From Bacillus sp. FJAT-29790 (GTDB lineage Bacteria > Bacillota > Bacilli > Bacillales > Cytobacillaceae), in contig NZ_JAHNZZ010000001.1 in the NCBI RefSeq assembly GCF_019039215.1, positions 1,647,882-1,683,735 on the forward strand: 35,854 nucleotides of DNA, read 5' to 3'. This document shows positions 3,344 to 35,809 of this stretch, piece after piece; the stretch's first letter is position 1, and the number at the start of each line of letters is the position of its first letter. The notes below the pieces were generated by a model that did not search any database, was not told where the DNA came from, and worked only from the letters and a program-made list of their open reading frames with translations. A program made the position numbers and the translations under genes.

Positions 3344-3684
3344 AAATGGAACTCTTATTAAACTGCCTCGTGTATTTAAGCACATTTTTTTACAATATTC
3401 ACAAAACAATTAAAAATGTTATTCCACAATCTGGCCGTTTGTTCAATAAGCACAAAATGTGTATAAATATTAGTATTCATACAATTTATTTTTAAAAAGT
3501 CATTCAAAAATATTAGTAAACATACTGCCATAACATACATAAGTTAAGTGCCAGAAACATGATATTTCCAATAATTTATAGAACTCATAATATAAAAGTT
3601 TTAGCTAAAGCTATTCAATAATGATACACCCATAATGGGTATGCAATTACAAAATCGATTCATCAGAATTTTAAGGAGGATAAT
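3344..3684. other. Intergenic region with two dispersed-element arms
   Basis: No gene is seen in these 340 bases. An AAACTGCCTCG..TTTAAG arm near 3359-3383 and a CCACAATCTGGCCG..TTCAATAAG arm at 3424-3451 belong to the dispersed intergenic element described in the findings. The rest is AT-rich and should hold the promoter of the next gene. The ribosome binding site AAGGAGG sits at about 3672-3678. Confidence 0.5.
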
Positions 3685-5595
3685 ATGAAAAGTAACAAAG
3701 TATTGATAGGAATAATTTCTCTTATGTTTATGCTATCTGCATGTGCCACTAATAGTAATCACAATAACCTAGATAAAAATATGAAGGACATTCATTTACA
3801 TTCCAGTTCAACTGATGTTCCTGAAACTTTAAAAATAGGGCATAACATAGATAAAAATACAGAGGACAATCATTCGAATTCCAGTTCAGCTGATGTTCCT
3901 GAAACTTCAAAAATTAGGAATAATAATACCAATGCTGAAGCACAAACAACTCGTCCAACGGTAATGTCGAAGAATGGGATGGTAACAGCTCCTCATTATC
4001 TTGCGTCACAAGCGGCTTTACAAGTGCTTAAAGATGGCGGTAATGCGATAGATGCAGCCATTGCTGCGGCATCTACACTGGCAGTGGTTTATCCTGATAT
4101 GAATACGATAGGCGCAGACAACTTTTGGCTCATTTTTAATGCGAAAACTAGGGAGCTAAAAGCCTTAAATGCAAGTGGGCGTTCAGGAGAGAAAGCTACA
4201 ATCGATTTTTATAAAAGTAAAGGGTACGATAAAATTCCCATACGTGGCTATTTAAGCGCCAATACCGTTCCAGGTGCGGTATCAGGCTGGGGAGAAGCTT
4301 ATAAATACTCACAAAATGAAATGGGTAATAACTTGCCATGGAGTAAACTTCTCGATTCTGCTATTCGATATGCCGAAGACGGCTTTCCGGTATCACCGAA
4401 CCTAGAATCTTATACAAAGGTCAACATTACAAAGGAAAAAAATACATTGGACCAAGAACAACATAACTTACAACGTTTTGAAGGATTTAGAAAAACATTC
4501 TTAAAACCTGATGGGTCACCTTATAAAGCCGGAGAAATCCTAAAACAGAAAGATTTAGCGAATACATTAAAGATCATTCAAACGCAAGGGGCCGACTCTT
4601 TCTATAATGGAATTATCGCGAAGAAAATTGTAGATGATGTACAGGCGAATGGCGGCTTACTAACCCTCAATGACTTTAAACAACATACAGCGGATTGGGT
4701 TGAGCCAATTTCAGTTGACTATCGTGGTTATAAAGCGTACAATTTTCCGCCTAATAGCCAAGGGATGGCTTCACTCGAAATCTTAAATATTTTGAACAAT
4801 TATGATCTATCCACAATCAAGGAAGGATCTGCTGATTACTATCATCTGATGACAGAAGCCATCAAACAATCATTCGCTGATCGAGATAAGTGGCTCACTG
4901 ATCCGAAATTCGTGAATATTCCGCTTGATTACCTATTATCTAAAAAGCATGGTCAAGACCAGGCGAACCGTATTGATATGAGAAAAGCGGCAGAATACGT
5001 CAAGCCTCTTGATCCTAAGCAGGATACTGTGTGGCTTGGTGTGACAGATAAATACGGGAATTCAGTTTCGGTTAATCAAAGTATTTATTTTGATTGGGGC
5101 TCTGCTATTGTTCCTAAAGGTACAGGCGTCCTTCTTCAGAATCGAGGCAGCTATTTCTCATTGAACCCTAACGAGGTCAATCATTTAGAGCCTAGAAAGA
5201 GAACGTTTAGTACATTAAATCCGGCTATGCTATTTAAGAACGACAAACCGTACCTACTTTATGGAACTCAAGGAGGGGAAGGACAGCCTCAAACCCAAAC
5301 GGCTTTAGTTACTCGTATTGTAGATTACGGTTTTGGTGTCCAAAACGCCATTGATGCACCAAGATGGGTATATGGACGCACATGGGGGAATCCCTCAAAT
5401 CAACTTAAGCTCGAACCTCGTATTCCAAAACAGGTCATTGACGAATTAAAGAAGCGTGGACATGATGTAGCCATAGAAAGGGAAGAATTCTCAACGACAA
5501 TGGGGATGTCCGGAGCGATTTTGATTGATCCTGATACCTCTGTGAAATTTGGAGGCGCCGATCCACGTGGTGATGGCATGGCCATAGGGTATTAA
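3685..5595 (+). CDS. Gamma-glutamyltransferase-family lipoprotein (N-terminal nucleophile hydrolase)
   Basis: The 636-residue protein has a lipoprotein signal peptide with lipobox LSAC (Cys20), so it is anchored outside the membrane. A low-complexity linker (about 21-90) contains a 26-residue unit repeated twice. The GGT domain follows: the N-terminal large-subunit block (GMVTAPHYLASQAALQVLKDGGNAIDAAIA, about 98-127) and the small-subunit start QDTVWLGVTDKYGNSVSVNQS, where Thr448 is the expected autocleavage nucleophile. TQGGEGQPQTQ and the C-terminal GADPRGDGMAIGY are also family landmarks. The DTVW form of the active site is that of the broad GGT-like family rather than classical GGT, so glutathione, another gamma-glutamyl compound or an amide may be the substrate. 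The start is supported by AAGGAGG seven bases upstream. Confidence 0.88.
   Translation: MKSNKVLIGIISLMFMLSACATNSNHNNLDKNMKDIHLHSSSTDVPETLKIGHNIDKNTEDNHSNSSSADVPETSKIRNNNTNAEAQTTRPTVMSKNGMVTAPHYLASQAALQVLKDGGNAIDAAIAAASTLAVVYPDMNTIGADNFWLIFNAKTRELKALNASGRSGEKATIDFYKSKGYDKIPIRGYLSANTVPGAVSGWGEAYKYSQNEMGNNLPWSKLLDSAIRYAEDGFPVSPNLESYTKVNITKEKNTLDQEQHNLQRFEGFRKTFLKPDGSPYKAGEILKQKDLANTLKIIQTQGADSFYNGIIAKKIVDDVQANGGLLTLNDFKQHTADWVEPISVDYRGYKAYNFPPNSQGMASLEILNILNNYDLSTIKEGSADYYHLMTEAIKQSFADRDKWLTDPKFVNIPLDYLLSKKHGQDQANRIDMRKAAEYVKPLDPKQDTVWLGVTDKYGNSVSVNQSIYFDWGSAIVPKGTGVLLQNRGSYFSLNPNEVNHLEPRKRTFSTLNPAMLFKNDKPYLLYGTQGGEGQPQTQTALVTRIVDYGFGVQNAIDAPRWVYGRTWGNPSNQLKLEPRIPKQVIDELKKRGHDVAIEREEFSTTMGMSGAILIDPDTSVKFGGADPRGDGMAIGY
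3764..3919 (+). repeat. 78-bp in-frame tandem duplication in GGT-like linker
   Basis: Two 78-bp units (3764-3841, 3842-3919) encode similar 26-residue segments, each with a SSS[TA]DVPET core. They lie in the spacer between the lipid anchor and the catalytic domain. Confidence 0.8.
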
Positions 5596-5642
5596 ATTAC
5601 AGATTTATTTTTGATCATTCTATTCTAAACGGTTAAACTTTT

Positions 5643-5900
5643 TTAATTATCAAGACCTAAAATATAAAGGGTGGTCCACGCTATATATGTACCACCCTTT
5701 AACTTCCTTACTAGCGATTGCTGATTATAGGGGGAATCAATTTTAGTATAGCTATTATCCAAAAACCAAACCATAAAACCATGAAACAGTATAATGGGAA
5801 TACTAATAAAAAGGCCAATAATTGTCCGAATTTTAGGAAACCTCGAACAAAAGCCAATTACCAGCAATGACGAGAATATTAATAACCAAGGGAATGACAT
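5643..5900 (-). CDS. Small hydrophobic protein, probably frameshifted
   Basis: The 85-residue frame has two predicted membrane segments and a basic tail. ATG at 5900 has no ribosome binding site, and an in-frame TGA lies 12 bases upstream. A second frame starts at ATG 5928, eight bases after the stop of the upstream gene (5936-6220). It reads MSLFLKPTGYVIPLVINI... and stops after LLFEVS. Removing one base at TCCTAAAA near 5835 would join EVS to KIRTIIGLF of the listed frame, giving a more natural two-helix protein of about 94 residues. I therefore suspect a single-base insertion. The 3' end runs through a 10-bp hairpin (5666-5675 with 5691-5700). Its function is unknown. Confidence 0.4.
   Translation of the reverse strand: MSFPWLLIFSSLLVIGFCSRFPKIRTIIGLFISIPIILFHGFMVWFLDNSYTKIDSPYNQQSLVRKLKGGTYIAWTTLYILGLDN
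5666..5700. terminator. Hairpin at convergent end of GGT-like gene
   Basis: AAAGGGTGGT (5666-5675) pairs perfectly with ACCACCCTTT (5691-5700) over a 15-base loop. T-runs on either strand are weak, so it may be a terminator or an mRNA 3'-end stabiliser between convergent genes. Confidence 0.4.
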
Positions 5901-5935
5901 AGCCTGTTGGTTTCAAAAAAAGAGACATCTTTAAA

Positions 5936-6220
5936 CTATAGTCTGAAAATTACAACAATAGTAATAAGTAATAGTAATACGACGTACATCCATACCGTTA
6001 ACTGAATCATCCATACAACCCATGACTTCTTTTGCAATCCAAAATAAATGACAAGACCGAAAAATAAAATATTTGTAACAATACGTAGCCCAGAAGTTTT
6101 TCCATTATAAAAATCCACAATATCGAGACTTATACCTATCAATGAAGAAATTATAAATATGAATAAGTATAGTTTGAATTTTCTTTCTTTCCTTTCTACC
6201 TCATGACTAAATTCATACAC
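5936..6220 (-). CDS. Small three-helix membrane protein
   Basis: The 94-residue protein has a charged N-terminus (HEVERKERKFK) and three predicted membrane segments at about 16-33, 47-62 and 70-92. The start is GTG at 6220, supported by GAGGT eight bases upstream; an ATG two bases further in lies in another frame. The small hydrophobic frame downstream follows closely, so the two probably form an operon. No family is recognised. Confidence 0.6.
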   Translation of the reverse strand: MYEFSHEVERKERKFKLYLFIFIISSLIGISLDIVDFYNGKTSGLRIVTNILFFGLVIYFGLQKKSWVVWMIQLTVWMYVVLLLLITIVVIFRL

Positions 6221-6370
6221 TTAGGATTACCTCGTTTTTTTATGAGTAAACTTCAACTTCTTACTAATCCTATACTACTAATATATACTGGAAAAAACAT
6301 TAGGAAAATATTACGTTAACGTTAAGTGTTCACTTTACAACATTTCTTTTTCCCTTGAAAAATATTTTTT

Positions 6371-6438
6371 GTTCCACAATATGGCCCGATTACTGAAAAA
6401 AGCACAATTCCTCTTCAAGAATTGCACCCGCCTTCTTG
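6371..6438. repeat. Dispersed hairpin element, copy B
   Basis: Left arm CCACAATATGGCCCGATTAC, then CAATTC/GAATTG hairpin, then right arm TTGCACCCGCC. It overlaps the 3' end of the DUF5071 gene and supplies its last residues (EELCFFQ). Confidence 0.55.
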
Positions 6439-6791
6439 TCCACTTCTTCTAATTTTTCGCCCTCAGTAGGTGTTGTAATTAGCCTTATTAAGTCGTTCCT
6501 TAACGATTCTTTATAATGAGGAGGTAACTTCTTAATTAAGTACTCTAAACACCAGAATTTCCATATATCATCGTTAGTTGAAAATACATTTTTTAAATGA
6601 GGAACAATTTCTTTCGGAAAAGTTATAAGAATTTCAGCGACTTTAGGTGCTATTGGCCAATTCATATCTTGAATCCATTCAAGAAGTTCAGGTAATAGAG
6701 GAATAATATCTTTTTTCTCCATCCTTTTTATTTTATGAACTCTTTCAAAATCAAACTTATTTCTTGGAAGTTGTTCCTCAAAGTTAATCAT
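6390..6791 (-). CDS. DUF5071 domain protein
   Basis: The protein has 133 residues, taking ATG at 6791 as start, with AAAGGTG five bases upstream; a GTG at 6800 lies inside that ribosome binding site. It carries the DUF5071 signature (LPELLEWIQDMNWPIAPKVAEIL, about 32-54, and the later WCLEYLIKKLP block), a small helical HEAT-like domain of unknown function common in Bacillus accessory regions. It is acidic and soluble, with no membrane segments. Its last dozen codons come from a dispersed intergenic element, so the native C-terminus may have been replaced. Confidence 0.8.
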   Translation of the reverse strand: MINFEEQLPRNKFDFERVHKIKRMEKKDIIPLLPELLEWIQDMNWPIAPKVAEILITFPKEIVPHLKNVFSTNDDIWKFWCLEYLIKKLPPHYKESLRNDLIRLITTPTEGEKLEEVDKKAGAILEEELCFFQ

Positions 6792-6828
6792 TTTTATCAC
6801 CTTTTATTACAAAATCGAGACTGATTTT

Positions 6829-6858
6829 ATTGAACAATTGCGCCCTTTTGTTGAATAA
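6829..6858. repeat. Dispersed element, single arm C
   Basis: TTGAACAATTGCGCCC and TTTTGTTGAATAA form the right-arm type of the dispersed intergenic element. The gap 6801-6928 otherwise shows nothing. Confidence 0.45.
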
Positions 6859-6928
6859 AATATTAAACCAAATTTAAGCTTCTATATCTTAATAGAACGT
6901 AAAAAGACTATAAATACATAAAAGAAGT

Positions 6929-7597
6929 TTAGGGAAGGGTCATAAGTTTATTTAATCGATTTACCAGCAGTTCTTTCCATTCGTTAGCCAATTCTTGAAC
7001 GTCCAGCACTCTTTTTATGCCCTCAACATCCTTTTGCTTATGAAAATAAATCTCATTTCCGTAAAGAATGGACACCTGTTTTGGATGTGATTCTATTAAT
7101 CTGATTTTAGAATCTTTACGAACAATACCTTCTTCTAATACACGACACAAATAACCTGTAAAACCGGTTTGTACCATCCTTTTTAGAAGAGAAGGATTAT
7201 TAGTTCTCTTTGTAATCGTGCTACATGGAATTCTACCTTGAGTTACTTGTATAACAGCATTACCAAGGAGGAAAATGTCACCAATAAAAATATCGTTTTC
7301 TAACATATTTGTAACAGTTAAATTCTCTCCAAAAGTTGAAGATGGTAAAGGGTTCTTGAACTCTTTCTCCCAAAGCAAATAATGTTCATACGGATATACA
7401 CATACAGCACGGTCGGGACCTCCATGATACCGTAAGTCGGCAACTCCATCTCCCCGAAATCCTTCTTTTGCTAAGAAAGCTTCTTCAATTGTTTGTTTGC
7501 ATATTCCCGTTTCTATTTCTTTATCATACCCATACTTCATTTTTTTTGGTAATCCAATTGAAAAATTTTTAAGTTCAATAACTTTATTATTTCCCAT
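6929..7597 (-). CDS. MOSC domain protein, YiiM-like
   Basis: The 222-residue protein belongs to the MOSC family (molybdenum cofactor sulfurase C-terminal domain). Visible landmarks are GDGVADLRYHGGPDRAVCVYP (about 49-69), FGENLTV (about 89-95) and the QGRIPCSTI block (about 120-128) with the conserved Cys expected to handle sulfur. The C-terminal helical extension matches the YiiM type. YiiM proteins are linked to molybdenum-dependent reduction of N-hydroxylated bases. The ribosome binding site is weak (GAAAGTGAG). The gene stands alone between dispersed-element copies, so its reaction here is inferred from the family only. Confidence 0.85.
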   Translation of the reverse strand: MGNNKVIELKNFSIGLPKKMKYGYDKEIETGICKQTIEEAFLAKEGFRGDGVADLRYHGGPDRAVCVYPYEHYLLWEKEFKNPLPSSTFGENLTVTNMLENDIFIGDIFLLGNAVIQVTQGRIPCSTITKRTNNPSLLKRMVQTGFTGYLCRVLEEGIVRKDSKIRLIESHPKQVSILYGNEIYFHKQKDVEGIKRVLDVQELANEWKELLVNRLNKLMTLP

Positions 7598-7763
7598 TTA
7601 ATATGTACTCACTTTCTATTATTAGTTATAGCTGATTATAGTTAAAATTCTAACACTTATAAAATCCATTTGCATGGAGACTGTTTTACTAACCAGCATT
7701 TGTTTATGTGCAACTTTTACAATCTCAGATTTGCGTAAATAACCAATTGTTTTCGGAGGTTTT

Positions 7764-7834
7764 CCTCGACAATATGGCCCTTTTCATGAAGAAAGACGCT
7801 TTCCTTATTTCAGAAAAGCGCCCTTTATGTTGAA
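7764..7834. repeat. Dispersed hairpin element, copy D
   Basis: Left arm CGACAATATGGCCC..TTCATGAAG, hairpin GCTTTCCT/AGAAAAGC with one C-A mismatch, right arm GCGCCC..TTATGTTGAATA. It lies 26 bases from the stop of the DUF4190 gene, in the 262-base gap 7598-7859. Confidence 0.6.
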
Positions 7835-7859
7835 TATTGTTATTGAAGTAAAGCCCCCG

Positions 7860-8141
7860 TTAGATGAAAAGCAACTCACCAGTAGTAATTGAAATTAATA
7901 TCGTGAGGAATATTCCAAATAGACAACAAATAATACCTGTTACAGCTTTTCTTTTTCCATTTTGTTTAAAACGGTTAATTTGTCTTAACCCTATAACACC
8001 ATAAATTAACCCAACAATCCCAAGTATAACGCCTACTGCGACAATAGAAGTAACAATTGAAAGAATACCAAGAACCAGTGATACTGTACCTTTGTTATTA
8101 GTCTTAATATCAATATCATTCGATACATCAAGATTACTCAT
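7860..8141 (-). CDS. DUF4190 domain membrane protein
   Basis: The 93-residue protein starts with a hydrophilic segment (MSNLDVSNDIDIKTNNKG) and continues with the DUF4190 pattern: a Gly-rich double membrane segment (SLVLGILSI...GVILGIVGLIYGVIGL, about 21-52), a basic cytoplasmic turn (RQINRFKQNGKRKA) and a final helix. The family occurs widely in Gram-positive bacteria, and its function is unknown. The ribosome binding site AAGGGGG lies well spaced before ATG 8141. It appears monocistronic. Confidence 0.8.
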   Translation of the reverse strand: MSNLDVSNDIDIKTNNKGTVSLVLGILSIVTSIVAVGVILGIVGLIYGVIGLRQINRFKQNGKRKAVTGIICCLFGIFLTILISITTGELLFI

Positions 8142-8156
8142 TTTTAACCCCCTTTT

Positions 8157-8188
8157 AAACTAAACTGCCCCGATAGTTCAATACCTTA
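8157..8188. repeat. Dispersed element, single arm E
   Basis: AAACTAAACTGCCCCGATAG followed by TTCAATA is a left-arm-type copy between divergent genes. Confidence 0.4.
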
Positions 8189-8247
8189 CGTTTCCACTTC
8201 TACAATCAAGGCAATAATTCCTCCAATACGAAAAGGAGGAGATTTTT

Positions 8248-8601
8248 TTGTTGTTATTAAGAACTTGGGAATTATATGAATCGGATAAAAAGATCGAAGG
8301 ATTCTCCCCTCAGACATTAAAAGCATATAAGCTCCAATCTAAGCTACTTATCCAATACTTTGACGATGTGAATATTGAATCATTGACTACTGATCGGCTT
8401 AAAGAATACTTGGCAAAATCCAGTGAACACCTCAAGCCATCAAGTTTGGCTCATCGAATTCGATTTATTAAATCGATATTTCGTTGGTCACACAATGAAG
8501 GGCATATACCGAAGAATCCTGCTGCGAAAATCAAAGAACCTAAACAAGGAAGAGGATTGCCGCAGCAATCCTTACTTAAGCTCAAGCACCCGTTAGTTTA
8601 A
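8248..8601 (+). pseudogene. Truncated tyrosine recombinase (N-terminal domain only)
   Basis: Residues 1-100 match the SAM-like core-binding domain of XerC/D-type integrases (FSPQTLKAYKLQSKLLIQYF ... LKEYLAKSSEHLKPSSLAHRIRFIKSIFRWSHNEGHIPKNPAAKI). The whole catalytic domain, with the R..HxxR..Y residues, is absent: the frame stops at 117 residues against the usual 290-330. The last residues (LLKLKHPLV) come from an AAGCACCCGTTAG arm of the dispersed intergenic element. The start is TTG at 8248, with AAGGAGGA eight bases upstream. It can have no recombinase activity by itself and is a relic of a mobile element or cassette-type integrase. Confidence 0.75.
8573..8601. repeat. Dispersed element, single arm F
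   Basis: CTCAAGCACCCGTTAG followed by TTTAAG overlaps the premature stop of the recombinase. Confidence 0.45.
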
Positions 8602-8726
8602 GTGAAACTGTTCATAATCATTTTATTGTATAGAACCTATAACAATTATATTTTCTAATACATAATAGCCATGCATTAATGGCACAATGTATAATGTTTA
8701 GAATTTATCATATAGTTGGTGCAAAA

Positions 8727-8906
8727 ATGAATGAGAAATTTGATAAAGAGAAAGAACTTTGGAATAAAATCCACCTACTTCGTGAAGAAATGGTTCGAAC
8801 AGCTTACAATAAGAAGTTAGATTTTCTTGATGAAGAAGTTTTATCATTGAGTCAAGGTTTAAACAAACTTTTAAACGAATATGAAAAATTATTACACAGA
8901 AAATAA
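8727..8906 (+). CDS. Spo0E-like aspartyl phosphate phosphatase family protein
   Basis: The protein has 59 residues, taking ATG at 8727 (MNEKFDKEKELWNKI). It has the size and two-helix layout of Spo0E-family regulators, which dephosphorylate Spo0A~P and delay sporulation. The family signature is a SQELD-like core in helix 2; here the equivalent is SLSQGLNKLLNEYE, so the conserved Asp is Asn (residue 46). The first helix (ELWNKIHLLREEMVRTA) fits well. Either the specificity or the phosphatase activity may be altered. The ribosome binding site is poor, and a frame extending upstream to 8679 lacks a convincing start. Confidence 0.7.
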   Translation: MNEKFDKEKELWNKIHLLREEMVRTAYNKKLDFLDEEVLSLSQGLNKLLNEYEKLLHRK

Positions 8907-8956
8907 GGGAATTAGCACCTCTAGAATGTGAATACATCCTACGCCGCTGTAACCCC

Positions 8957-9015
8957 GTGTTCAACTAAAGCACCCGTTAGCCATCCATGAAGCGCAAAAG
9001 CCAGCGCTTCACCAC
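8957..9015. repeat. Dispersed hairpin element, copy G
   Basis: TTCAACTAAAGCACCCGTTAG arm parts at 8960-8980, then perfect hairpin TGAAGCGC (8988-8995) with GCGCTTCA (9004-9011). It follows the Spo0E-like stop by about 50 bases. Confidence 0.5.
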
Positions 9016-9042
9016 AGAGAATGAAAATGGATACCCCTGTCT

Positions 9043-9083
9043 ATACTGTTTCTACGGCTGACGAAGAAGGCTCAGCCTTTTTT
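9043..9083 (+). terminator. Intrinsic terminator inside a 28-bp direct repeat
   Basis: GGCTGA (9056-9061) pairs with TCAGCC (9072-9077), followed by TTTTTT. Bases 9043-9070 are identical to 9870-9897, where the downstream stem half and T-run are missing. Confidence 0.65.
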
Positions 9084-9278
9084 AAAAAGCGTTTTTACTA
9101 GGTCCATTTTGTTATGCGTTTTTCTTGGTTTTGAGCTTTTTTTATTTTCACGGGAGATTTCCGCTAAAATAGACATTCTACTGTCCTATAAGATAAGTAA
9201 CAAAATACAAATCGTTGTAAAACCTCACTTTTCTGACGCCCATCTTTTATACAGAAGAAAAACATTAACCTTTACATC

Positions 9279-9345
9279 CACTCACGCAATTCTCATCATA
9301 TTCTCATTTTATTATCCGAATCTCCTCATTTTCGCAAGTTATTAT
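9279..9345 (+). promoter_or_regulatory. Phased TTCTCAT repeats upstream of PepSY gene
   Basis: TTCTCAT occurs at 9290 and 9301, with related words CACTCAC at 9279 and TCCTCAT at 9323, all on an 11-base spacing (9312 is degenerate). A TATTAT-like -10 lies near 9339-9344. Direct repeats with 11-base periodicity are the usual footprint of OmpR-family response regulators. The intergenic stretch 9084-9379 holds no convincing gene. Confidence 0.5.
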
Positions 9346-9379
9346 ATGAATAACAGCAAAACAGAGGAGGATTTATTTC

Positions 9380-9721
9380 ATGATACGTAAATTATTCTTT
9401 ACAAGTATGATTGGTTTAGTTTTTATGGGGAAAGCGGTCGGCGTAGGTGCCATTTCAGAAAATAATCAAATTGAAAATAACGGAAATATACAATTCATGG
9501 AATATGAAAAAAAAATTGCCGTTAATGGAGTGAACAGGAGTAATATATCAAAAGTGGAAGCAATGGCAATAGCTGAAAAGGAAGAAAAAGGTAAAGTAAT
9601 GGATGCTGTTTTTCATCCTGAGGAAGAATTTTATCAAATTGGATTCACAAAACTCGGACATAACGTCGTTATTAAAGTTGATTCGCATAATGGAAAAATT
9701 CTTGAAAAGAAAATTTTATAA
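9380..9721 (+). CDS. Secreted PepSY domain protein
   Basis: The 113-residue protein has a signal peptide (MIRKLFFTSMIGLVFMGKAVGVGA, about 1-24) and a single PepSY domain at about 56-113, with the ISKVEAMAIAEKE helix, a central strand and the VDSHNGKILEKK end. PepSY domains are often inhibitory or accessory modules of secreted peptidases and of envelope-stress systems. GAGGAGG lies eight bases before ATG. Phased TTCTCAT repeats upstream suggest two-component control, but no kinase or regulator gene is in the window. Confidence 0.8.
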   Translation: MIRKLFFTSMIGLVFMGKAVGVGAISENNQIENNGNIQFMEYEKKIAVNGVNRSNISKVEAMAIAEKEEKGKVMDAVFHPEEEFYQIGFTKLGHNVVIKVDSHNGKILEKKIL

Positions 9722-10031
9722 AATTAATGATACAAATCTGAGGCGTATTAATATAAGAATCCTCCTGAAGATGCCCTAGCAGTGTGTGGAAGTCTATCCA
9801 ATGATGAAATGATTGTGCTTAGTTGTGGATTTGTTTCTTCTTTAGGTTTCTTGATACCGATCCCAGCCAATACTGTTTCTACGGCTGACGAAGAAGGTCG
9901 ATACACTATGGTGCAATAGAGCCCATCCGTTAGTCTGACTCCAAGGATCACGGTGTACCACCGACTGTCGCGCCCTATATGGGTAGCACTCATGGGAGTT
10001 CAAGAGGAAAATTCCTTAGTAGCATCCATTA
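9722..10031. other. Region open on both strands; possible gene relic
   Basis: On the + strand, an open stretch from about 9755 to TAG 9917-9919 reads ...EDALAVCGSLSNDEMIVLS... and ends TADEEGRYTMVQ. On the - strand, 9748-9993 is open for 81 codons. Neither has a ribosome binding site, and I recognise neither. Bases 9870-9897 repeat 9043-9070 exactly, and a TAGAGCCCATCCGTT arm at 9916-9930 recurs near 16555. I treat it as debris. Confidence 0.35.
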
Positions 10032-10391: not shown

Positions 10392-10461
10392 TAAAATCAC
10401 TCCTTAAATTCCTTGTTTTACTTATGTACGCTCTAAACCCTATTATTAATAAGGACTTATT

Positions 10462-10537
10462 AAACTATTCTGCCAGTACTTCAAGAAGAAAATGCGTCTC
10501 CACTTATTGTAGAAACGCTACCTGTTCGTTCAAAAAG
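10462..10537. repeat. Dispersed hairpin element, copy I
   Basis: Left arm AAACTATTCTGCCAGTACTT CAAGAAG, hairpin GCGTCTCCAC/GTAGAAACGC (8 of 10 pairs), right arm CTACCTGTTCGTTCAA. It ends nine bases from the stop of the DUF3885 gene. Confidence 0.6.
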
Positions 10538-10546
10538 AATTAATTC

Positions 10547-11188
10547 TTATTTAAACACTTTATCTATTTCGTCCTTGTCGTAATCTAATATCCAATCATT
10601 GTATGTATTATAAATGTCTCGAATAGATTCAGGTGAGGTAGCAAGCAAATCACATCCTCTATCATCGTACACATGAAAAATGGTTTTCCTTTTGATATTT
10701 AAAAAATATATCCTATGAAAAATACTTGGTTGGATTCCTAAATCCTGATTACATACTGCTTTTAATAATGGAATGTATTTCATATCAGATACTTTGCATT
10801 CAAGGGTAAACCTATGTGTTTTATATTTTCCGTTTTCATCATCTTCAGGAAAAATATAAGGCATTTCTGTATGCTTCAATTTATATAACACTGATTTTTC
10901 ATAGATATATGGAGAAAAAATCCTTGCTTTGTGCTTATAGGTTTTTTCATCTCCAAAATCATTCACATCTACTACAATAAAAATTTCCTCGTCTTGTGAA
11001 TGTAATGATTCAAACAACAGGACAGCCCTTTTATAAACCTCCTGTACATAAGGACTGTTTTCATAATCGTATTCTCTATCCCACTCTACTCCTAACTCGA
11101 ACCGTATGCCGATTTCCCAGTTATAAAACAAAGGTGGTCTAAGATTTAAGTTAGGAAAATTTTCATTCATATAGTCATTTAAAAGCAT
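10547..11188 (-). CDS. DUF3885 domain protein
   Basis: The 213-residue protein has the DUF3885 hallmark near the N-terminus (LNLRPPLFYNWEIGIRFELGV, about 14-34) and its C-terminal block HRIYFLNIKRKTIFHVYDDRGCDLLATSPESIRDIYNTYNDWILDYD (about 157-203). The family is common in Bacillus, soluble and of unknown function. Synteny with lone hypothetical genes has led others to suspect roles in inter-strain competition or immunity, but nothing here proves it. GAGGTG precedes ATG 11188 by five bases. It appears monocistronic, with a dispersed-element copy on each side. Confidence 0.8.
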   Translation of the reverse strand: MLLNDYMNENFPNLNLRPPLFYNWEIGIRFELGVEWDREYDYENSPYVQEVYKRAVLLFESLHSQDEEIFIVVDVNDFGDEKTYKHKARIFSPYIYEKSVLYKLKHTEMPYIFPEDDENGKYKTHRFTLECKVSDMKYIPLLKAVCNQDLGIQPSIFHRIYFLNIKRKTIFHVYDDRGCDLLATSPESIRDIYNTYNDWILDYDKDEIDKVFK

Positions 11189-11230
11189 ATCTGCACCTCA
11201 ATTTGTTTCTTTAATTTTACCATTTTTTCT

Positions 11231-11305
11231 TCAACTAACCTGCCATTTACTTGAATAAGGAAAAAGCGTTCCTGCTTTTTTCAGAAACGCGCCCGATTGC
11301 TGAAA
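11231..11305. repeat. Dispersed hairpin element, copy J (best preserved)
   Basis: Left arm TCAACTAACCTGCC then TTTACTTGAATAAG; hairpin GCGTTCCTG/CAGAAACGC with one C-A mismatch; right arm GCGCCCGATTGCTGAA. It lies in the 225-base gap 11189-11413, downstream of the oxalate decarboxylase gene. Confidence 0.65.
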
Positions 11306-11413
11306 TCGATTATTTGTTTTCCTTTTTTATTTTTAACATAATATTTGAAATTTCATATAGAATAAAAAAACTTGTATTTTAACCAAAAGCAATTTCAAAA
11401 TTGGCAATCAAAT

Positions 11414-12618: not shown

Positions 12619-12887
12619 TACGCTCCTTTTTTTTGGGATTAACAAGGGAAAATTCTTTTTCTTAGTGTATGACTTGGGCTTAAAAAGGTTACTTTGCCTA
12701 TTGATAAAAAAATCAGGAGCATCCCTAATTAAAGTAATACCCCCGTCCACTTCTAAAATTTTTGATTCTAAGAAAAAATTTGTTACTTTAACTGTGCAAC
12801 CCCGCTTGTTACGTATAAACCTTCAGGATTTCTTTTTTGTGAAAGTAGACGGTTATTAAGAATATGTTGGAAATTAATAAATTTTAT

Positions 12888-12925
12888 ACAAAAAAACGTC
12901 ATTTTAATCGTAATAATGACGTTTT
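12888..12925 (-). terminator. Intrinsic terminator of catalase gene
   Basis: AAAACGTCATT (12893-12903) and AATGACGTTTT (12915-12925) pair perfectly; on the minus strand the stem is followed by a T-run. Confidence 0.85.
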
Positions 12926-12936
12926 GAATCTTCTTT

Positions 12937-14316
12937 TCACTTTTTCAATTCAATTTCAATTCTCTTTGCTAAGTCAGATGATACTTTATCGAAATACTCC
13001 ATAACTTTCTTTCTAATATCATAAGATATGACTTTCAAATCAGTAGCTAAATTTTCGACAAGATGTTCTTTTTCTATTTGGGTTAACCTCGTATAGAATT
13101 CACCAGCCTGCCCAAAATCGTCTTGCTTTGTAATAGAAGCTCTTTCTAGTTTGCCTCCAACATATCTTCCATTACCACTTGAAATTTGATTTGCTGGTGT
13201 CCAATTTTGCTGTTGGTTAACCGGTAATTTACGAAATTCAGCTCCAATTCTTCTTCTTTGAGAATCACTATAAATATTGGCACGGCCCTGCAGTATTTTA
13301 TCATCAGATAATTCTGCGCCGTCTAGTAAATTAGAAGGGGCGAAGGCGACTTTTTCTACTTGTTCCATATAATTATCAGGATTTTTATTTAATACCATTT
13401 TACCTACTGGTATTAGGGGATACTCTTTTTCATCCCACACTTTTGTATCGTCTAAAGGATCATAAGAAAGATTTGCTTCATCCTTTGGGTCCATGAGCTG
13501 GACATATAAGCCATATTCCACCGGTTTGCCTCCTGCAATCGCATCGTATAAATCTTTACCAGCGTAATCAGGATTTTCAGCGGATAGTCTATTTGCTTCT
13601 TCGCGACCAATGTATTGCACACCTTCAAATGGGTACCAATGGTATTTAACATACTTTCTAATACCTTGAGCATTTCTCCAAACATATGTATTTACACTAT
13701 GTCCTGGAGTGTGGAGAAAACTTTTTACCGTACCGGCATCAGAGAATAAACGTACAACAAAATGAATCGATTCAGGCGCTCTTGCTACGAAGCTCCAAAA
13801 CCTATTAGGATCAATTAAATTATTTTTTGGTGAAGGTAAGAATGCTTTAATAAATTCCGGAAATCGTATCGCATCACGAATAGAAAAGACAGGAATGTGA
13901 TTACATATTAGGTCAAAAACGCCTTCTTCTGTATAAAATTTTGTAGCAAAACCACGTACATTTCTAGATGTATCAGGTGTTCCTTTCGTACTGACGGCTA
14001 ACGAAAAGCGAACCATAACAGGAACTGTCTGATTAGAATTTTGTAAAAAACTCAGTTTTGTATGTTCGGCCATCGAATATATCGTTTGAAAATAACCAAA
14101 TGCACCAAATCCTTTTACATGAACAGGTCTTTCTAAAATCTTTTCATGAATAAATTCTTGTAAGGTTTCGTGTAGTACACCATCTTGTTCCAGTACAGGT
14201 CCCCTAGAACCGATCGTCTGGGAATGAAGTTTAGCTGGCTCATTGGAGAGGTCCCGATTCTCATAATGGATTTCCTCTAATAAAGTTTGCCTCTGTTTAT
14301 GATGTTTTTCATTCAT
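12937..14316 (-). CDS. Heme catalase
   Basis: The protein has 459 residues, starting at ATG 14316, with TGGAGG seven bases upstream; the TTG at 14331 overlaps that site. It is a monofunctional catalase decomposing H2O2. The distal His66 lies in ERPVHVKGFGAFGYF, Ser105 in VRFSLAV, and Asn139 in FDLICNHIPVFSIRDA; the His-Asn spacing of 73 equals the family standard. The proximal heme ligand Tyr lies in GRANIYSDSQRRRIG near 328. The length fits small-subunit catalases. It is transcribed on its own (terminator at 12888-12925), upstream of the broken oxalate decarboxylase. No clear PerR box was found. Confidence 0.93.
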   Translation of the reverse strand: MNEKHHKQRQTLLEEIHYENRDLSNEPAKLHSQTIGSRGPVLEQDGVLHETLQEFIHEKILERPVHVKGFGAFGYFQTIYSMAEHTKLSFLQNSNQTVPVMVRFSLAVSTKGTPDTSRNVRGFATKFYTEEGVFDLICNHIPVFSIRDAIRFPEFIKAFLPSPKNNLIDPNRFWSFVARAPESIHFVVRLFSDAGTVKSFLHTPGHSVNTYVWRNAQGIRKYVKYHWYPFEGVQYIGREEANRLSAENPDYAGKDLYDAIAGGKPVEYGLYVQLMDPKDEANLSYDPLDDTKVWDEKEYPLIPVGKMVLNKNPDNYMEQVEKVAFAPSNLLDGAELSDDKILQGRANIYSDSQRRRIGAEFRKLPVNQQQNWTPANQISSGNGRYVGGKLERASITKQDDFGQAGEFYTRLTQIEKEHLVENLATDLKVISYDIRKKVMEYFDKVSSDLAKRIEIELKK

Positions 14317-14331
14317 TATTATAGCCTCCAA

Positions 14332-14760
14332 AATTTAATTTCCATCAATCGTTACTAAATATGATTTTTAAGGCTCGAATATGAATCTACTTCTTTTATT
14401 TTCAACATTCATTAGAAATATAGTTTTTTAAAGTTAGTAGCATTTTAAGGGAATTGCAATATAAAGTGAATTTGAACCGATGTGAGAACAGAAAGAAAAC
14501 TCCTATGCAGTGACCTTATTAAACAAGTAGAATTATGCAAAGATGAATTTGAAGAAGGAAAAGCTTCTTAAAATAGAAGCTTATTTTTGTGTGGTAAAAG
14601 AACAGAATTTTTTATAAATAATACATCTAGATATAATATATAAAAATCCATTTTGATTAATCTTATTCAAAATGGATTCTTTTTGGTTCTCACAAAATAA
14701 GGGTTTGCAAAGCATTTTTGAACAAACTTTATTCCAAACCAACATTGAAAACGGTGAGTG
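14332..14760. other. Intergenic region with two terminators and a short relic frame
   Basis: A frame ending ...LIKQVELCKDEFEEGKAS at TAA 14568-14570 (from GTG near 14480, no ribosome binding site) may be a gene tail. It runs into hairpin AAGCTTCT/AGAAGCTT (14561-14582) followed by ATTTTT. The promoter of the catalase gene should lie just left of centre. No other gene is seen. Confidence 0.35.
14645..14684. terminator. Strong bidirectional terminator
   Basis: AATCCATTTTGA (14645-14656) pairs perfectly with TCAAAATGGATT (14667-14678), with T-runs on both strands. Confidence 0.7.
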
Positions 14761-14929
14761 GATTGGAGCGGAAGGCACTTGATTCCTGCGGGAGATAGAG
14801 GAAAAGTCGAGACCCCGCAGACGGAACGTCGAGGAGGCTCGACTTCCTCCCCGCGGAAAGCAAGTGCCTGTAGCGGAAAGAAACGGGCATTGTTTATTCC
14901 TGATAACAACAAACTTTACGAAAACAGCC
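14745..14929 (+). repeat. MITE-like repeat, copy 1
   Basis: A G+C-rich core (GGATTGGAGCGGAAGGCACT, then CCCGCGGAAAGCAAGTGCC and AACGGGCA) ends at TTACGAAAACAGCC. The core recurs at 22083-22374 and, inverted, at 30515-30756. The left terminus is not recognisable in this copy. The core sharply exceeds the surrounding G+C content. Confidence 0.75.
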
Positions 14930-15013
14930 AATAATTATTCACATTCTTGTTTGTGCTTTCCCCCCTGCCAAATGTAACTATGGACAAAGGACCAGTATAG
15001 GAGGGGATTAAAA

Positions 15014-15568
15014 ATGAATAATGGCTTTAGCGGTTATTACCGTCAACATCACGGCCTTCATCCAATTTTAGATCAAATTTTGGAAAAGTGGACTGGGGAA
15101 CCCAAAAAGACAGTTTATTTGTTAGTCAATAAATATGGTTTACCTAATGAAGCAAGTTCGAGAAGAATTATCTGGTATAACAACGGTCCTTGGAAGCGTA
15201 CGATTGTTCATCTTGATACAGTACTTCATAACGCTCCGCTCCCCCATCTTGATTATTTAGAACAAACCATTGATTATAAAGTTCCTGTTCAATTCTTTGA
15301 TGAATTAGCACAGTTTGATGGTAGTTTATATCCAGACCGAACGGCTGGTGAGGCTACGGCTAAATGCGATCATGAATCGACGAATATTATGGCTTTAAAC
15401 TTGATGCACGATATTGTGACTGGCAAGCGAACCGCAAAAGATGCAATGCGTGCTGCGGTTGAAATTGAAAAAGCTTTGCGATTAAAAGGTCAATCGTCAC
15501 CTTACACCAGAGGATTCCTATTCCCAAAACAATATCATACTGCTGATCCCGGTGTCGCCGCTTTTTAA
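15014..15568 (+). CDS. Hypothetical protein, 184 residues
   Basis: ATG 15014 is preceded by AGGAGGGG. The protein is soluble and His/Tyr-rich at the N-terminus (GFSGYYRQHHGLHPILDQILEKWTGEPKKT), with a mid segment RRIIWYNNGPWKRTIVHLDTV and a striking GEATAKCDHESTNIMALNLMHDIVTGKRTAKDAMRAAVEIEKAL block (about 117-160) that looks conserved. A Cys-Asp-His cluster could bind metal, but this is only a guess. No signal peptide or membrane segment is visible. It stands alone, with a terminal dispersed-element arm immediately after the stop. I cannot assign a family. Confidence 0.75.
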   Translation: MNNGFSGYYRQHHGLHPILDQILEKWTGEPKKTVYLLVNKYGLPNEASSRRIIWYNNGPWKRTIVHLDTVLHNAPLPHLDYLEQTIDYKVPVQFFDELAQFDGSLYPDRTAGEATAKCDHESTNIMALNLMHDIVTGKRTAKDAMRAAVEIEKALRLKGQSSPYTRGFLFPKQYHTADPGVAAF

Positions 15569-15595
15569 GCCCAACTAAATCGGCAGGTTGGTTCC
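15569..15595. repeat. Dispersed element, inverted arm
   Basis: Read on the minus strand this gives AACCAACCTGCCGATTTAG, the left-arm type, opposite in direction to the other copies. It begins right after the stop of the plus-strand gene. Confidence 0.45.
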
Positions 15596-15634
15596 ATTAT
15601 TGGAAGTGTGCTGTCTTCCTATAATTATTTTACT

Positions 15635-15712
15635 TTAACTAACCTGCACGTTACTTGAAGAAGATGAAAGGAGCATTACCATTGTTCCGGTGATGCACCT
15701 TGTTATTGCAAG
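15635..15712. repeat. Dispersed hairpin element, copy K
   Basis: Left arm TTAACTAACCTGCACG then TTACTTGAAGAAG; hairpin GCATTACC/GGTGATGC; right arm CACCTTGTTATTGCAAG. It lies in the gap between convergent genes, 37 bases from the stop of the minus-strand gene. Confidence 0.6.
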
Positions 15713-15748
15713 AGAATTATGATTATCTCACGACTTTAATTGTATCCT

Positions 15749-16303
15749 TTATTTAAATGGTTCAATCGTTTTAAGCCGACCTTTGTTAGGTGATCGTGAA
15801 TTCCAAACAAAGCTTACTAAATACTGTTGATTAACTTCAACTAATTGAAATTCATTCACAGATACGCTAATCTTTTTATCATCGAATACTAAATAATACT
15901 TTCCTTCCTCATGAAGTTTCTGTTTTAACACAAATATTCCTCCAGTCGATACTTCATGAAATTGATGATTTGTTATTGAAAAAATAAAGATGATAGAGAT
16001 GATTACCATTATAGCTTTTACCTTCGTTTTTAGATTGCCCTTTTGTCTTCTCCTTTTTCGTAAGTATTTAATTACATGGTACAAGTAGATGAGAAACACA
16101 ACGGGTACAAGGAAGATTGCCAAATTAAATGGGACATACAATATTTCGTGTAAACTATAATTGAAATCTGCAATAGCTTGAATTCTGCCAAGCTGTAAAC
16201 CTATAAATCCTGAATAAATAAGTCCTAACAACCAATATAATGCCAACTTCTGAGCTCTAAATAATTTTTGATTGTCTTTTCCCTCTTCATTATTTAGATT
16301 CAT
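15749..16303 (-). CDS. Membrane protein of unknown function
   Basis: The 184-residue protein has a cytoplasmic N-terminus, three predicted membrane segments (about 20-40, 56-76 and 96-113) with a strongly basic loop between the second and third (KYLRKRRRQKGNLKTK), and a C-terminal domain of about 70 residues rich in beta-strand character (KYYLVFDDKKISVSVNEFQLVEVNQQYLVSFVWNSRS). The ribosome binding site GGGAGG precedes ATG 16303. No family is recognised. It looks monocistronic, bounded by a dispersed element at its 3' side and by a terminator at 16372-16405 at its 5' side. Confidence 0.65.
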   Translation of the reverse strand: MNLNNEEGKDNQKLFRAQKLALYWLLGLIYSGFIGLQLGRIQAIADFNYSLHEILYVPFNLAIFLVPVVFLIYLYHVIKYLRKRRRQKGNLKTKVKAIMVIISIIFIFSITNHQFHEVSTGGIFVLKQKLHEEGKYYLVFDDKKISVSVNEFQLVEVNQQYLVSFVWNSRSPNKGRLKTIEPFK

Positions 16304-16371
16304 TTAATAACCTCCCACAAAATCAACTCTTTTGCTTTAACTCTATTAAATTTAAATGTTGATAATTAGAT

Positions 16372-16405
16372 AAAATTAAGGAAACCCACTTTCAATTGGT
16401 TTCCT
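16372..16405 (-). terminator. Hairpin downstream of XRE/membrane operon
   Basis: AGGAAACC (16379-16386) pairs with GGTTTCCT (16398-16405); the minus strand continues TTAATTTT. Confidence 0.55.
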
Positions 16406-16548
16406 AAAAATCTTAATTAGTTAGCCCTAGATAGTGAAATTTTGCATTTAGCAAGGTATTACTTAAATCCACTGATGCCTCAAAGGCAATATATAATGTA
16501 ATAATACCCGTTAATACAGCTGGGAGAGGAAGGTCACTTAACTAAGGT

Positions 16549-16570
16549 GCGTTAGAGCCCATCCGTTGAT
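16549..16570. repeat. Dispersed element, single arm L
   Basis: GCGTTAGAGCCCATCCGTTG, sharing TAGAGCCCATCCGTT exactly with 9916-9930; 22 bases from the next stop codon. Confidence 0.4.
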
Positions 16571-16591
16571 TTTTATAATTTCGTCATTATT

Positions 16592-16990
16592 TTAACGGTA
16601 CTTTTTTGAAACAACGAACTCAGTAATTGGCATGGTTATCAACGCAAGTCCAATTACTATAACGAGTGGGATATTTTTTATGTCATTCATTGCAGTTACT
16701 CTTTCCGATACAACTAAAACGATCAACATCAATAAAAGCAATAGATAATAACTTATTTTTGAACTTGTCAGTGTTATATGTTTCTCCAATTCATCTTTTT
16801 CTCCTTCATGTTTTCCCTCCATTTCACCCCAAGTTATAGATTGAAAGAAGAAACCAATTCCTAAAAATACAAAGAAGAGTGTAGAAGCGTTAATCATTTC
16901 TTTTGTAATCCATTCATATACACCAAAACCACCAATTGCAATAATAAGAATGAAAGAACAGATTATACTAACTTTTTTTACAGTGTTCAT
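16592..16990 (-). CDS. Four-helix membrane protein paired with XRE regulator
   Basis: The 132-residue protein has four predicted membrane segments (about 7-27, 36-54, 80-97 and 108-126) and a charged central loop (GEMEGKHEGEKDELEKHI). The ATG overlaps the last codons of the XRE gene (4-base overlap, translational coupling). Small membrane proteins encoded directly after a YozG/YvaO-like HTH protein are common in Firmicutes, where the regulator often represses the pair. The role of the membrane partner is unknown. Confidence 0.7.
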   Translation of the reverse strand: MNTVKKVSIICSFILIIAIGGFGVYEWITKEMINASTLFFVFLGIGFFFQSITWGEMEGKHEGEKDELEKHITLTSSKISYYLLLLLMLIVLVVSERVTAMNDIKNIPLVIVIGLALITMPITEFVVSKKYR

Positions 16991-17199
16991 TTATTCTCAT
17001 CCCTTTCGTATTTGAAAATAAATAATTCTTCGATTGAAAGTCCTAAAACGTAAGACAAAGTAAATGCCAACTGTAAACTTGGGTCATATTTGTCGTTTTC
17101 AATGGCATTAATCGTTTGTCTCGACACTTTGCATTTCTGTGCAAGCTCTTCTTGCGATAATCCCTTCGATTTCCTTAGAGCTTGAATTCTATTTTCCAA
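16987..17199 (-). CDS. XRE-family helix-turn-helix regulator
   Basis: This is a compact one-domain repressor of about 70 residues (LSQEELAQKCKVSRQTINAIENDKYDPSLQLAFTLSYVLGLSIEELFIF), nearly all helix-turn-helix. I prefer the TTG start at 17199 because AGGTGA lies five bases upstream; the GTG at 17208 lies within that ribosome binding site and has none of its own. Its promoter has TTGACA (17261-17266, complement). A perfect inverted repeat ATGTAAA-N6-TTTACAT at 17217-17236 lies between promoter and start, so autorepression is likely. It is cotranscribed with the membrane protein. Confidence 0.85.
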   Translation of the reverse strand: MENRIQALRKSKGLSQEELAQKCKVSRQTINAIENDKYDPSLQLAFTLSYVLGLSIEELFIFKYERDENK

Positions 17200-17216
17200 A
17201 ATATTCACCTACAAAT

Positions 17217-17280
17217 ATGTAAAGAAGATTTTACATTTACTTTAACAGAAATTAGCATTATGTCAAACGTGCTTTACATA
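17217..17280 (-). promoter_or_regulatory. Promoter and operator of XRE gene
   Basis: On the minus strand TTGACA (complement of 17261-17266) is followed after 16 bases by TAAAGT. ATGTAAA (17217-17223) and TTTACAT (17230-17236) form a perfect inverted repeat. A second imperfect copy, ATGTCAAA..TTTACAT, lies at 17260-17279 across the -35. Confidence 0.55.
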
Positions 17281-17618
17281 AAACACACAGTAATACAGCA
17301 TTAATTTTCAGTGTATTGTTGAACTAGCCTATTCTCCGTTACTTTAGGTACAATTCTTCGCATACACATCTAAGAATAAATATCTAATTTTCTTTGAAGG
17401 TTTTATTCATAAAATTGCCCATTGATTGAACAACAAGACGGGGAAGTTTGACTATGCTTAATCAATTTGGAATGAATAGATAGTGGAGTAAAACTCGTAA
17501 CGAAAACATATAGCAGAAACGATAAAGTGCTATAACCTTTATTCAAGTAATGCACAATCATAAATATATTCTCCTCCTTTGGTATTCTAAATTTTATTAA
17601 AAGGCTTATTTAGCGCAA
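17281..17618. other. Intergenic region with element arms
   Basis: Arms resembling the dispersed element occur near 17319-17345 (TTGAACTAGCC..CCGTTACTTTAG) and 17405-17432 (AAAATTGCCCATTGATTGAA). No gene is seen. Confidence 0.4.
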
Positions 17619-17653
17619 TAAAAAAGAAACAGAGTTGCCGTAACCCTGTTTCT
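17619..17653 (-). terminator. Intrinsic terminator of MaoC gene
   Basis: AGAAACAG and CTGTTTCT pair (17625-17632 with 17646-17653); the minus strand continues with TTTTTT. A GCACCCATCAGTTGAAG arm lies just after, at 17663-17679. Confidence 0.75.
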
Positions 17654-17693
17654 AGAACTCTTGCACCCATCAGTTGAAGAAAGTATAAAGAAT

Positions 17694-18071
17694 TTAAAGT
17701 ATTACACCTGAGAAATCCCCTTTTAATACTTCTTTTTCATTCTGATTTTTACATAAAAAGGATGCAACAATGGCTGTTCTATTATTTTCTTGCCTTTCGT
17801 ATTTTTCAATTTCAACATCACAAATTATGGTATCCCCCGTAAACACAGGTCTTAAAAACTCAAAATTCATATTACGAGCCAGTACGTTATGATCTCCACC
17901 TACTTTTGTTGGTAGAGTTGCCGTTAATAACCCTTGAACTACAAGTCTTCCCTGTTCATCTGGGGTAATATGATGAATCCCTTCATCACCTGAAATCTCT
18001 GTAAATAATTCAATATCCCTTACTGTAAAAGTCCGTTCAAACGTAATTATATCTCCTACTTTTAATGACAA
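17694..18071 (-). CDS. MaoC-like hot-dog dehydratase family protein
   Basis: The protein has 125 residues, starting at TTG 18071 (MSLKVGDIITFERTF), with a strong GGGGGGAG seven bases upstream; the longer frame to 18101 would start inside untranslated sequence. The MaoC/(R)-enoyl-CoA hydratase pattern is visible: FTEISGDEGIHHITPDEQGRLVVQGLL, with the catalytic Asp and His of the SGD..xH hydratase motif, then the RPVFTGDTI strand. A role in hydrating enoyl-CoA or binding an acyl-CoA intermediate is likely, but no pathway genes adjoin. Confidence 0.8.
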   Translation of the reverse strand: MSLKVGDIITFERTFTVRDIELFTEISGDEGIHHITPDEQGRLVVQGLLTATLPTKVGGDHNVLARNMNFEFLRPVFTGDTIICDVEIEKYERQENNRTAIVASFLCKNQNEKEVLKGDFSGVIL

Positions 18072-18341
18072 ATAACTCTCCCCCCTGAAGGCTATAAGCA
18101 CTAATTATATATTCCATATTGAATTCATAATTTCCTTTTCCAATGTCTGTTTTATTTATTCCCATCCTCCTAGTGATATTCCTTTCTCTTTAATTAACCT
18201 GCTTCCTCCGCATGAAGCATGCAACATTTTTTTCTTTACTAATTTGGTCTAAATCGAACGATAATCATATATTTTATATGAAGGATGCAAGATGAGTATT
18301 TTTCATGTAACACATTCCATATGAAATAGGTGAGACAAAAA

Positions 18342-35500: not shown

Positions 35501-35809
35501 TGGGCTCCCCCTCACTTATAATTATTCGATGAAAACAGGTAGTTTAGAAGCTATTCTTAACATTATAAATTCGAATTTCACTAAGTTTATTCAACAATCG
35601 GCCAGTTTCCACAATATAGGGTGCTCCCCCGCCCCTCCCTAAGAAGGGTTTACCATTGCAAAGCGATCTCCCGGCTGCAATTTTTTTGCTTAATTAACAC
35701 ATTAACTCCCACCCTTTTATTGCTTGATTATCTACGTATGGGTTTTTAAATTCTATGTAATCATCAAAATTACCTGCTTTTATTCAAGTTAATGGCCCGA
35801 TCGTAATAT
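35501..35809. other. Right-end intergenic region with element arms
   Basis: Arms of the dispersed element occur at about 35583-35612 (TTCAACAATCGGCCAG, CCACAATA) and 35770-35805 (ATTACCTGC..TTCAAG, AATGGCCCGATCG). No gene is seen. Confidence 0.45.

Follow-up and report, generated by a model that had tools for sequence, protein, structure and literature searches.

Hairpin elements behind genes in Bacillus sp. FJAT-29790 as candidate joints of an integron-like cassette array with a Xer-like recombinase

A stretch of 35,854 nucleotides from Bacillus sp. FJAT-29790 (assembly GCF_019039215.1, contig NZ_JAHNZZ010000001.1, here C1:1647882-1683735 of a 4.55-Mb genome; this whole stretch is called the window) carries short dispersed elements, each with a hairpin between two conserved arms and placed close to gene ends. 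Are these elements the joints of mobile gene cassettes, as an original prediction made from the letters of the window had proposed, or do they belong to a family of repeats that also act as terminators? Comparing sequences among related genomes, we conclude that the region is very probably an eroded, integron-like array of mobile gene cassettes, whose sites would be recombined by Int, a tyrosine recombinase encoded within such arrays. The cassette proposal is supported by single-gene segments common to different genomes, breaks at the sites, an orientation linked to that of the gene, and a recombinase that co-varies with the sites.

A full element consists of two sites, L (AACTAACCTGCCCC/GTTAGTT) and R (GCACCC/GTTAGTTGAA; the slash marks the edge between spacer and right half), which flank a terminator-like hairpin that faces the gene. 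Each site is built of two inverted half-sites of about 10 bp (TTNAACTAAC and GTTAGTTGAA) around a spacer of 6-7 bp, which comes in two kinds, CTGCCCC in L and GCACCC in R, nearly always in the same direction. A-type elements read TTCAACTAAC-CTGCCCC-GTTAGTTCAATAAG, hairpin, CTTGAACTAA-GCACCC-GTTAGTTGAA, and the core of B-type elements is AACAATC and GATTGTT. Alignment of 38 elements shows invariant columns in both spacers (CT of CTGCC; C and CC of GCACCC) and a single invariant T in each GTTAG, left and right. The interval from L to R is occupied either by a short terminator-like hairpin or by a recombinase gene; L-to-R modules are mostly 40-80 bp long, with a second group at 900-1200 bp and some of intermediate length. 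The short modules with a hairpin may well have arisen from the recombinase module by deletion. In 100 of 209 elements the gene strand carries a terminator-like hairpin (G+C stem followed by a T-run; 1.2 after shuffling), and in 8 the other strand does (0.2 after shuffling), so the terminator part of the alternative that had been offered alongside the cassettes also holds; its other part, a pure family of miniature inverted-repeat transposable elements (MITE) or repetitive extragenic palindromes (REP), leaves single-gene segments with both flanks changed unexplained.

We scanned the window with site matrices, for which it had supplied 1 of 77 training rows and other loci the remainder. Fifteen merged sites scored at least 17 bits, all on the plus strand, whereas 40 first-order Markov resamples of the window had 0.1 on average and never more than 1; we therefore regard the dispersed elements as real (Table 1). 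Of the six near-complete copies listed at the outset, sites were located in B, D, I, J, and K; copy G drops out, its right site being fused to a different dispersed repeat. The gap in the family seen between about 18.3 and 35.5 kb holds at this threshold: no site of at least 17 bits lies across 18.2-35.7 kb, and one follows at 35780. Weaker matches inside the gap, such as those at 31768 (15.7 bits) and 34942 (16.9 bits), score little better than chance would give. That elements supply the ends of genes was borne out by open reading frames (ORFs) 6390-6800 (minus strand), 7860-8141 (minus), and 8248-8601 (plus), which terminate within elements. A reversed arm had been placed near 15569, 3' of the plus-strand gene 15014-15568, and there we found a minus-strand left site at 15582-15599, marginal at 17.0 bits and outside the merged list. 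No Rfam family reached its gathering score in the window, and ARAGORN found no tRNA there.

In the arrangement that we propose, a cassette would be the segment from an R site to the next L site, usually with one gene on the opposite strand. The longest ORF ran opposite to the site strand in 202 of 241 R-to-next-L modules of 300-1500 bp (p 1e-27), and for opposite ORFs of at least 80 amino acids (n=175) the median distances were 51 bp between stop and R and 97 bp between start and L. The orientation of the element thus follows the gene, as had been noticed in the window, and the interval before the ORF start leaves room for a candidate promoter in each cassette.

Modules of this kind recur in different surroundings. 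BLAST among 100 loci, at 200 bp or more and 80% identity or more, yielded 492 segments, 186 of them without a recombinase; L152 had been removed as a duplicate of L041/L042, and other unnamed and named loci may share one genome (L with a number denotes a locus, G a genome). Of the 359 usable ends of these 186 segments, 58 had a site no more than 20 bp away in both loci (0.45 for random positions) and a further 74 in one locus (24.8 for random positions), and nine segments had both ends at sites in both loci, one of them from the window's own genome (L040 10448-11292, 98.6% in G021). One 0.4-kb module is common to Mesobacillus maritimus, Virgibacillus indicus, Gracilibacillus timonensis, and Paucisalibacillus globulus at 90-99% identity. 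The window's DUF3885 module recurs in a different genus (G062) with both flanks different; it ends on the right inside an L site and on the left at a degenerate R site, one not picked up by the matrix in the window. Inner, L-to-R modules are also swapped as units (L088/L095). Loci with and without an element were compared between species and between arrays. As a separate observation, 6.2 kb are 99.7% identical between L116 10884-17133 (Paucisalibacillus globulus) and L126 12548-18784 (Gracilibacillus timonensis), which reflects recent transfer or mixed DNA.

The point at which modules are joined is narrow. In three classes of module ends (n=131, 61, and 17) the onset or end of identity beyond that of unrelated sites coincides, to within a few bp, with the boundary of spacer and right half, CCC/NTTAG; in a fourth (n=28) the spacer length of either 6 or 7 bp blurs the picture. 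Joints that combine an L left half with a typical R right flank occur at L040 11967, at L040 16481, and in L052. A break confined to one edge of the spacer is compatible with a single strand exchange, and a single exchange at CCC/NTTAG would allow such L/R hybrid joints even though the two spacers differ.

The candidate enzyme is encoded in the arrays themselves. Int relatives are Xer-like tyrosine recombinases of 279 amino acids, in which R138, K162, H228, R231, H254, and Y263, which we take to be the catalytic residues, are invariant among 15 aligned rows. Int scored 211.7 bits with NF040815 (cut-off 220), 205.9 with XerC, and 200.2 with XerD, each below its cut-off; the solved structure nearest to it by sequence is XerD 1a0p, and in a tree a long branch sets its clade apart from eight Bacillales Xer proteins. 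Identity with the integron integrase IntI was rejected (TIGR02249 scores of 96.1 and 93.2 bits, where the cut-off is 265), and the IntI profile exceeded its cut-off in none of 151 genomes, nor in any of 14 control genomes. A phage origin found no support either: integrases in four phage records were 33-35% identical, and the exact left-site pattern had no match in viral contigs. The window itself retains a remnant of int, the N-terminal part within ORF 8248-8601. Its DNA is about 95% identical to the int of G018 and of G021 as far as 8558; there it is joined to a hairpin and an R site, and the stop comes from the latter. Elsewhere in the same genome there is an intact int, at C3:313572 and from another clade, and a broken one at C1:1987778.

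The int gene is often preceded by a site that resembles attI of integrons. An L-type site lies 55-125 bp upstream of the int start in 38 of the 77 int loci with enough upstream DNA; 36 of these 38 also have enough downstream DNA, and in 31 of the 36 an R site follows the int stop at no more than 190 bp, mostly at about 50 bp. Between loci, the int leader is 0.85 identical, against 0.53 in the 70 bp beyond the L site (102 pairs; random 0.50), identity beyond it exceeding 0.6 in 6 of the 102; likewise, identity is 0.80 from the int stop to R and 0.55 beyond R (71 pairs). Relative to L140, L112 has extra DNA exactly at the attI-like site (+1.25 kb); both are arrays of Neobacillus sp. DY30, and their segments are 99% and 92% identical. 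The same is seen in L105 over L131 (+1.7 kb) and in L041 over L112 (+0.5 kb), two comparisons that are weaker because their ints are only 72-73% identical. Other comparisons of loci placed additional DNA at the R site 3' of int, and across 80 loci sites occur on both sides of int (385 plus and 34 minus before it, 346 plus and 37 minus after it). On the Sporosarcina psychrophila plasmid pSP10-266k (L167), int is flanked on both sides by opposite-strand genes, including merA, merR, and a GNAT acetyltransferase.

The sites change with the recombinase. We surveyed the best 80 int loci; 11 non-intact ones were left out of the tree and assigned to clades by identity, clade 1 being set at 72% or more to the query, which excluded L157 at 67%. 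In 66 clade-1 loci, 642 of 671 sites lay on the strand of int, whereas in 13 loci of other clades 56 of 63 lay on the opposite strand, and A- and B-type sites numbered 589 and 82 in clade 1 and 5 and 40 in clade 3. One clade of 57 rows in the Int tree includes all 53 rows labelled plus, together with three unlabelled and one uncounted; the 12 int rows outside it comprise nine minus and three unlabelled. Both polarity and site type thus track the Int clade, in line with the expectation that a recombinase would co-vary with the family. Locus L219, from the same class and outside the window's order, has an int relative with site-like sequences of reversed polarity on both sides, as judged by eye.

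Both sites and int recur among relatives of the window. An R-site pattern with at most one mismatch, which detects A-type sites only, matched 264 times in 89 of 151 genomes, against 13 matches for a reversed control, and many of the matches form one-directional clusters. Relatives of int were present in 44 of the 151 genomes (E 1e-60, including broken copies and two relatives at 42-43% identity). A sample of 397 genomes from the order had relatives in 76, and a sample of 398 from the phylum had them in 4, of which three belong to the window's order; eight plasmid records also carried one. The element was present in 36 of 44 genomes with int, against 53 of 107 without a close int (Fisher p 1.7e-4). 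One contig named Chryseobacterium sp. ISL-80 (L122) has a Bacillales-type int and sites, which are probably contamination.

Several results weigh against reading the region as a cassette array moved by Int. The longest ORF lies on the site strand in 39 of the 241 modules, and 227 of the 359 segment ends fall at a site in neither locus, within a set of homologous segments that are mutually non-independent and include paralogous arrays of one strain. An L-type site occupies the attI place in just the 38 of 77 loci given above, and independent moves of one cassette are possible for L105/L131 and L041/L112. Of the genomes without a close int, 53 of 107 have at least one R-site match, from which it follows that int is not needed to keep the elements, and 8 of 44 genomes with int have none. 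The covariance expected of the arms was absent or weak: in 209 elements the outer arms had no covariation within loci (z -1.2) and the inner arms weak covariation (z 2.5), the arms being conserved as sequence. Because the outer arms belong to different modules, their covariation is uninformative on whether the substrate is folded or double-stranded, and a folded-strand model draws no support from it. Free folding of nine strands gave z-scores of -0.4 to -4.3 and mixed structures; the family is therefore not defined by one RNA fold, and we used site matrices in place of a covariance model. Finally, that recombination occurs at the sites is itself something that we infer from sequence.

Of the other explanations, the one that fares best makes the int module (L, int, terminator, R) an autonomous mobile element and the hairpins its internally deleted, MITE-like derivatives, which insert behind genes that are themselves immobile. 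The position of int between L and R in 31 of 36 loci, where hairpins sit elsewhere, speaks for such an element, as do L-to-R lengths that fall mostly in a short and a long group with some between, the swapping of inner modules as units in L088/L095, and the window's int remnant, whose fusion to a hairpin and R site resembles a deletion step. It is difficult to reconcile with R/L-bounded gene segments that are common to different genera with both flanks changed and with extra DNA at attI that consists of gene-bearing segments, and we consider it improbable. We give still less credence to the host proteins XerC and XerD moving the modules, as with dif modules, with Int as a bystander. Xer sites share the plan of half-site, 6-7 bp spacer, and half-site, and elements do occur in genomes without a close int; site sequence and polarity, however, track the Int clade, Int branches far from the eight Xer proteins included, and the sites run in one direction. 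Least probable of all is that the elements are mere terminators or REP-like repeats serving homologous recombination between genomic islands, since, terminator-like as the hairpins are on the gene strand, the homology amounts to tens of degenerate bases, the breaks fall within a few bp of one point, and the arrays contain a recombinase with matching sites.

We read the system, then, as an integron-like cassette system whose recombinase falls below the IntI cut-off. Int would exchange DNA at the right spacer edge (CCC/NTTAG) and so insert and remove cassettes, most clearly at the attI-like L site before its own gene, with cassette circles as intermediates and terminators that would insulate individual cassettes; Int as the catalyst, the circles, and the insulation are parts of this scheme that we infer. 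A more far-reaching version, in which a Bacillales Xer-like lineage evolved an integron independently, with cassette capture apart from IntI, a single strand exchange at the right spacer edge, and terminators moved as separate modules between cassettes, is one that we entertain tentatively and lean slightly away from. If the cassette reading is true, soil bacilli have a common pool of single accessory genes, many of unknown function, and a second case, with a different enzyme, becomes available for asking what cassette capture requires among the features of integrons, be it attI, one polarity, strand choice, or insulation by terminators.

Several other repeats and motifs accompany the family. 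The motif TTTAAGTACATTYCTTCACAA (TTTAAGT...TTCACAA) follows 141 of 580 R sites in the fetched loci, with a partial case at window 8592-8617; TTCACWA occurs in 111 of these 141, against 31 of the 439 other R sites, and the motif also stands upstream of several clade-2 ints, so that it is possibly an accessory binding site. The repeat to which right site G is fused (window 8960-9070 and 9861-9998) has copies 75-95% identical in dozens of related genomes; its left end begins at an R site (GCACCC/GTTAGCCATCC), and a second copy in the window's genome lies at C1:949313-950450 with a 96% copy of window 9185-9790. A third dispersed repeat (CGCGGAAAGCAAGTGCC), of about 150-240 bp, occurs at window 14755-14929, 22138-22374, and 30534-30721 and also in L037, L038, L039, and L047. 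Outside the array, window 33371-33435 contains a perfect 21-bp inverted repeat with a 23-bp gap.

Table 1. Sites, elements, and related features in the window, numbered over the whole 35,854-nt stretch
Feature	Position	Strand	Score or remark
B-type left site (TTATTCCACAATCTGGCCGTTTGTTCAA)	3419..3450	+	25.2 bits
B-type element B: left site, hairpin, degenerate right site	6369..6439	+	left site 28.8 bits; contains stop codon of ORF 6390-6800 (-), DUF5071
Right site 3' of MOSC gene 6929-7597 (-)	6830..6861	+	33.8 bits; a G013 segment 85% identical to the window starts beside it, at 6867
B-type element D: left site, hairpin, right site	7762..7834	+	left 22.7 bits, right 13.8 bits
A-type right site with stop codon of ORF 7860-8141 (-), DUF4190	7843..7874	+	32.6 bits
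attI-like left site upstream of recombinase remnant	8152..8185	+	22.2 bits; positioned as the L site before intact int genes
N-terminal remnant of tyrosine recombinase int	8248..8558	+	Phage_int_SAM_1; DNA identity to G021/G018 int
Hairpin (8554-8571) and right site, fused to int remnant	8554..8607	+	31.8 bits; right site provides final codons and stop of ORF 8248-8601
Right site G, fused to other dispersed repeat	8960..8991	+	18.1 bits
A-type element I: left site, hairpin, degenerate right site	10457..10533	+	left 21.0 bits; right end sub-threshold, by eye
Gene module: DUF3885 gene 10547-11188 between elements I and J	10527..11235	-	90% identical in G062
Full element J: left site 11227-11244, hairpin, right site 11279-11310	11227..11310	+	29.1 and 33.1 bits
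Left site directly 3' of plus-strand gene 15014-15568	15570..15599	-	17.0 bits, marginal
Element K: left site, hairpin, degenerate right site	15631..15711	+	left site 19.4/20.7 bits
Right site 3' of ORF 17694-18101 (-)	17653..17684	+	26.8 bits
Left site upstream of ORF 17694-18101 (-)	18186..18205	+	18.6 bits
B-type left site where family returns	35780..35798	+	21.8 bits

In the open PubMed Central literature we found no recognisable description of this system; most subscription papers and preprints lie outside that collection, so a prior description is possible. Like the bcr repeats and other MITE/REP-like families of bacilli, the elements are short, dispersed, and structured; the elements described here bound probable mobile gene modules and match a recombinase. 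XerA, XerC, and XerD give the profiles nearest to Int, which differs from them in scoring below their cut-offs, in forming a separate clade, and in its location within cassette arrays. The dif (pdif) modules of Acinetobacter plasmids resemble the modules described here in placing genes between short Xer-like sites and in being shuffled between replicons. In dif modules, XerC/XerD sites alternate in orientation and are moved by the host Xer proteins, whereas here the sites have one polarity, a dedicated recombinase is encoded in the array, and the arrays are largely chromosomal.

The closest likeness is to integrons. A published report (PMC9024848) describes integrons as very rare in Firmicutes and gives, for IntegronFinder 2.0, one complete Firmicutes integron (Limnochorda pilosa) and a few clusters lacking an integrase. 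Both systems have tandem cassettes of mostly one gene, a structured site 3' of the gene, one polarity, and a tyrosine recombinase with an attI-like site upstream, beside which new cassettes appear; some arrays here are without a close integrase, as are the integrase-less attC clusters. The differences begin with the recombinase, which is not IntI, and extend to the core. The consensus of the attC core is GTTRRRY and RYYYAAC, and the core here is NTTAGTT, its consensus right half GTTAGTT deviating at the sixth base, which agrees with the original prediction that the integron core is not used. Integron arrays lie on one side of a fixed integrase platform; here sites lie on both sides of int, int is itself within a site-bounded module, and each element has two sites around a predicted terminator.

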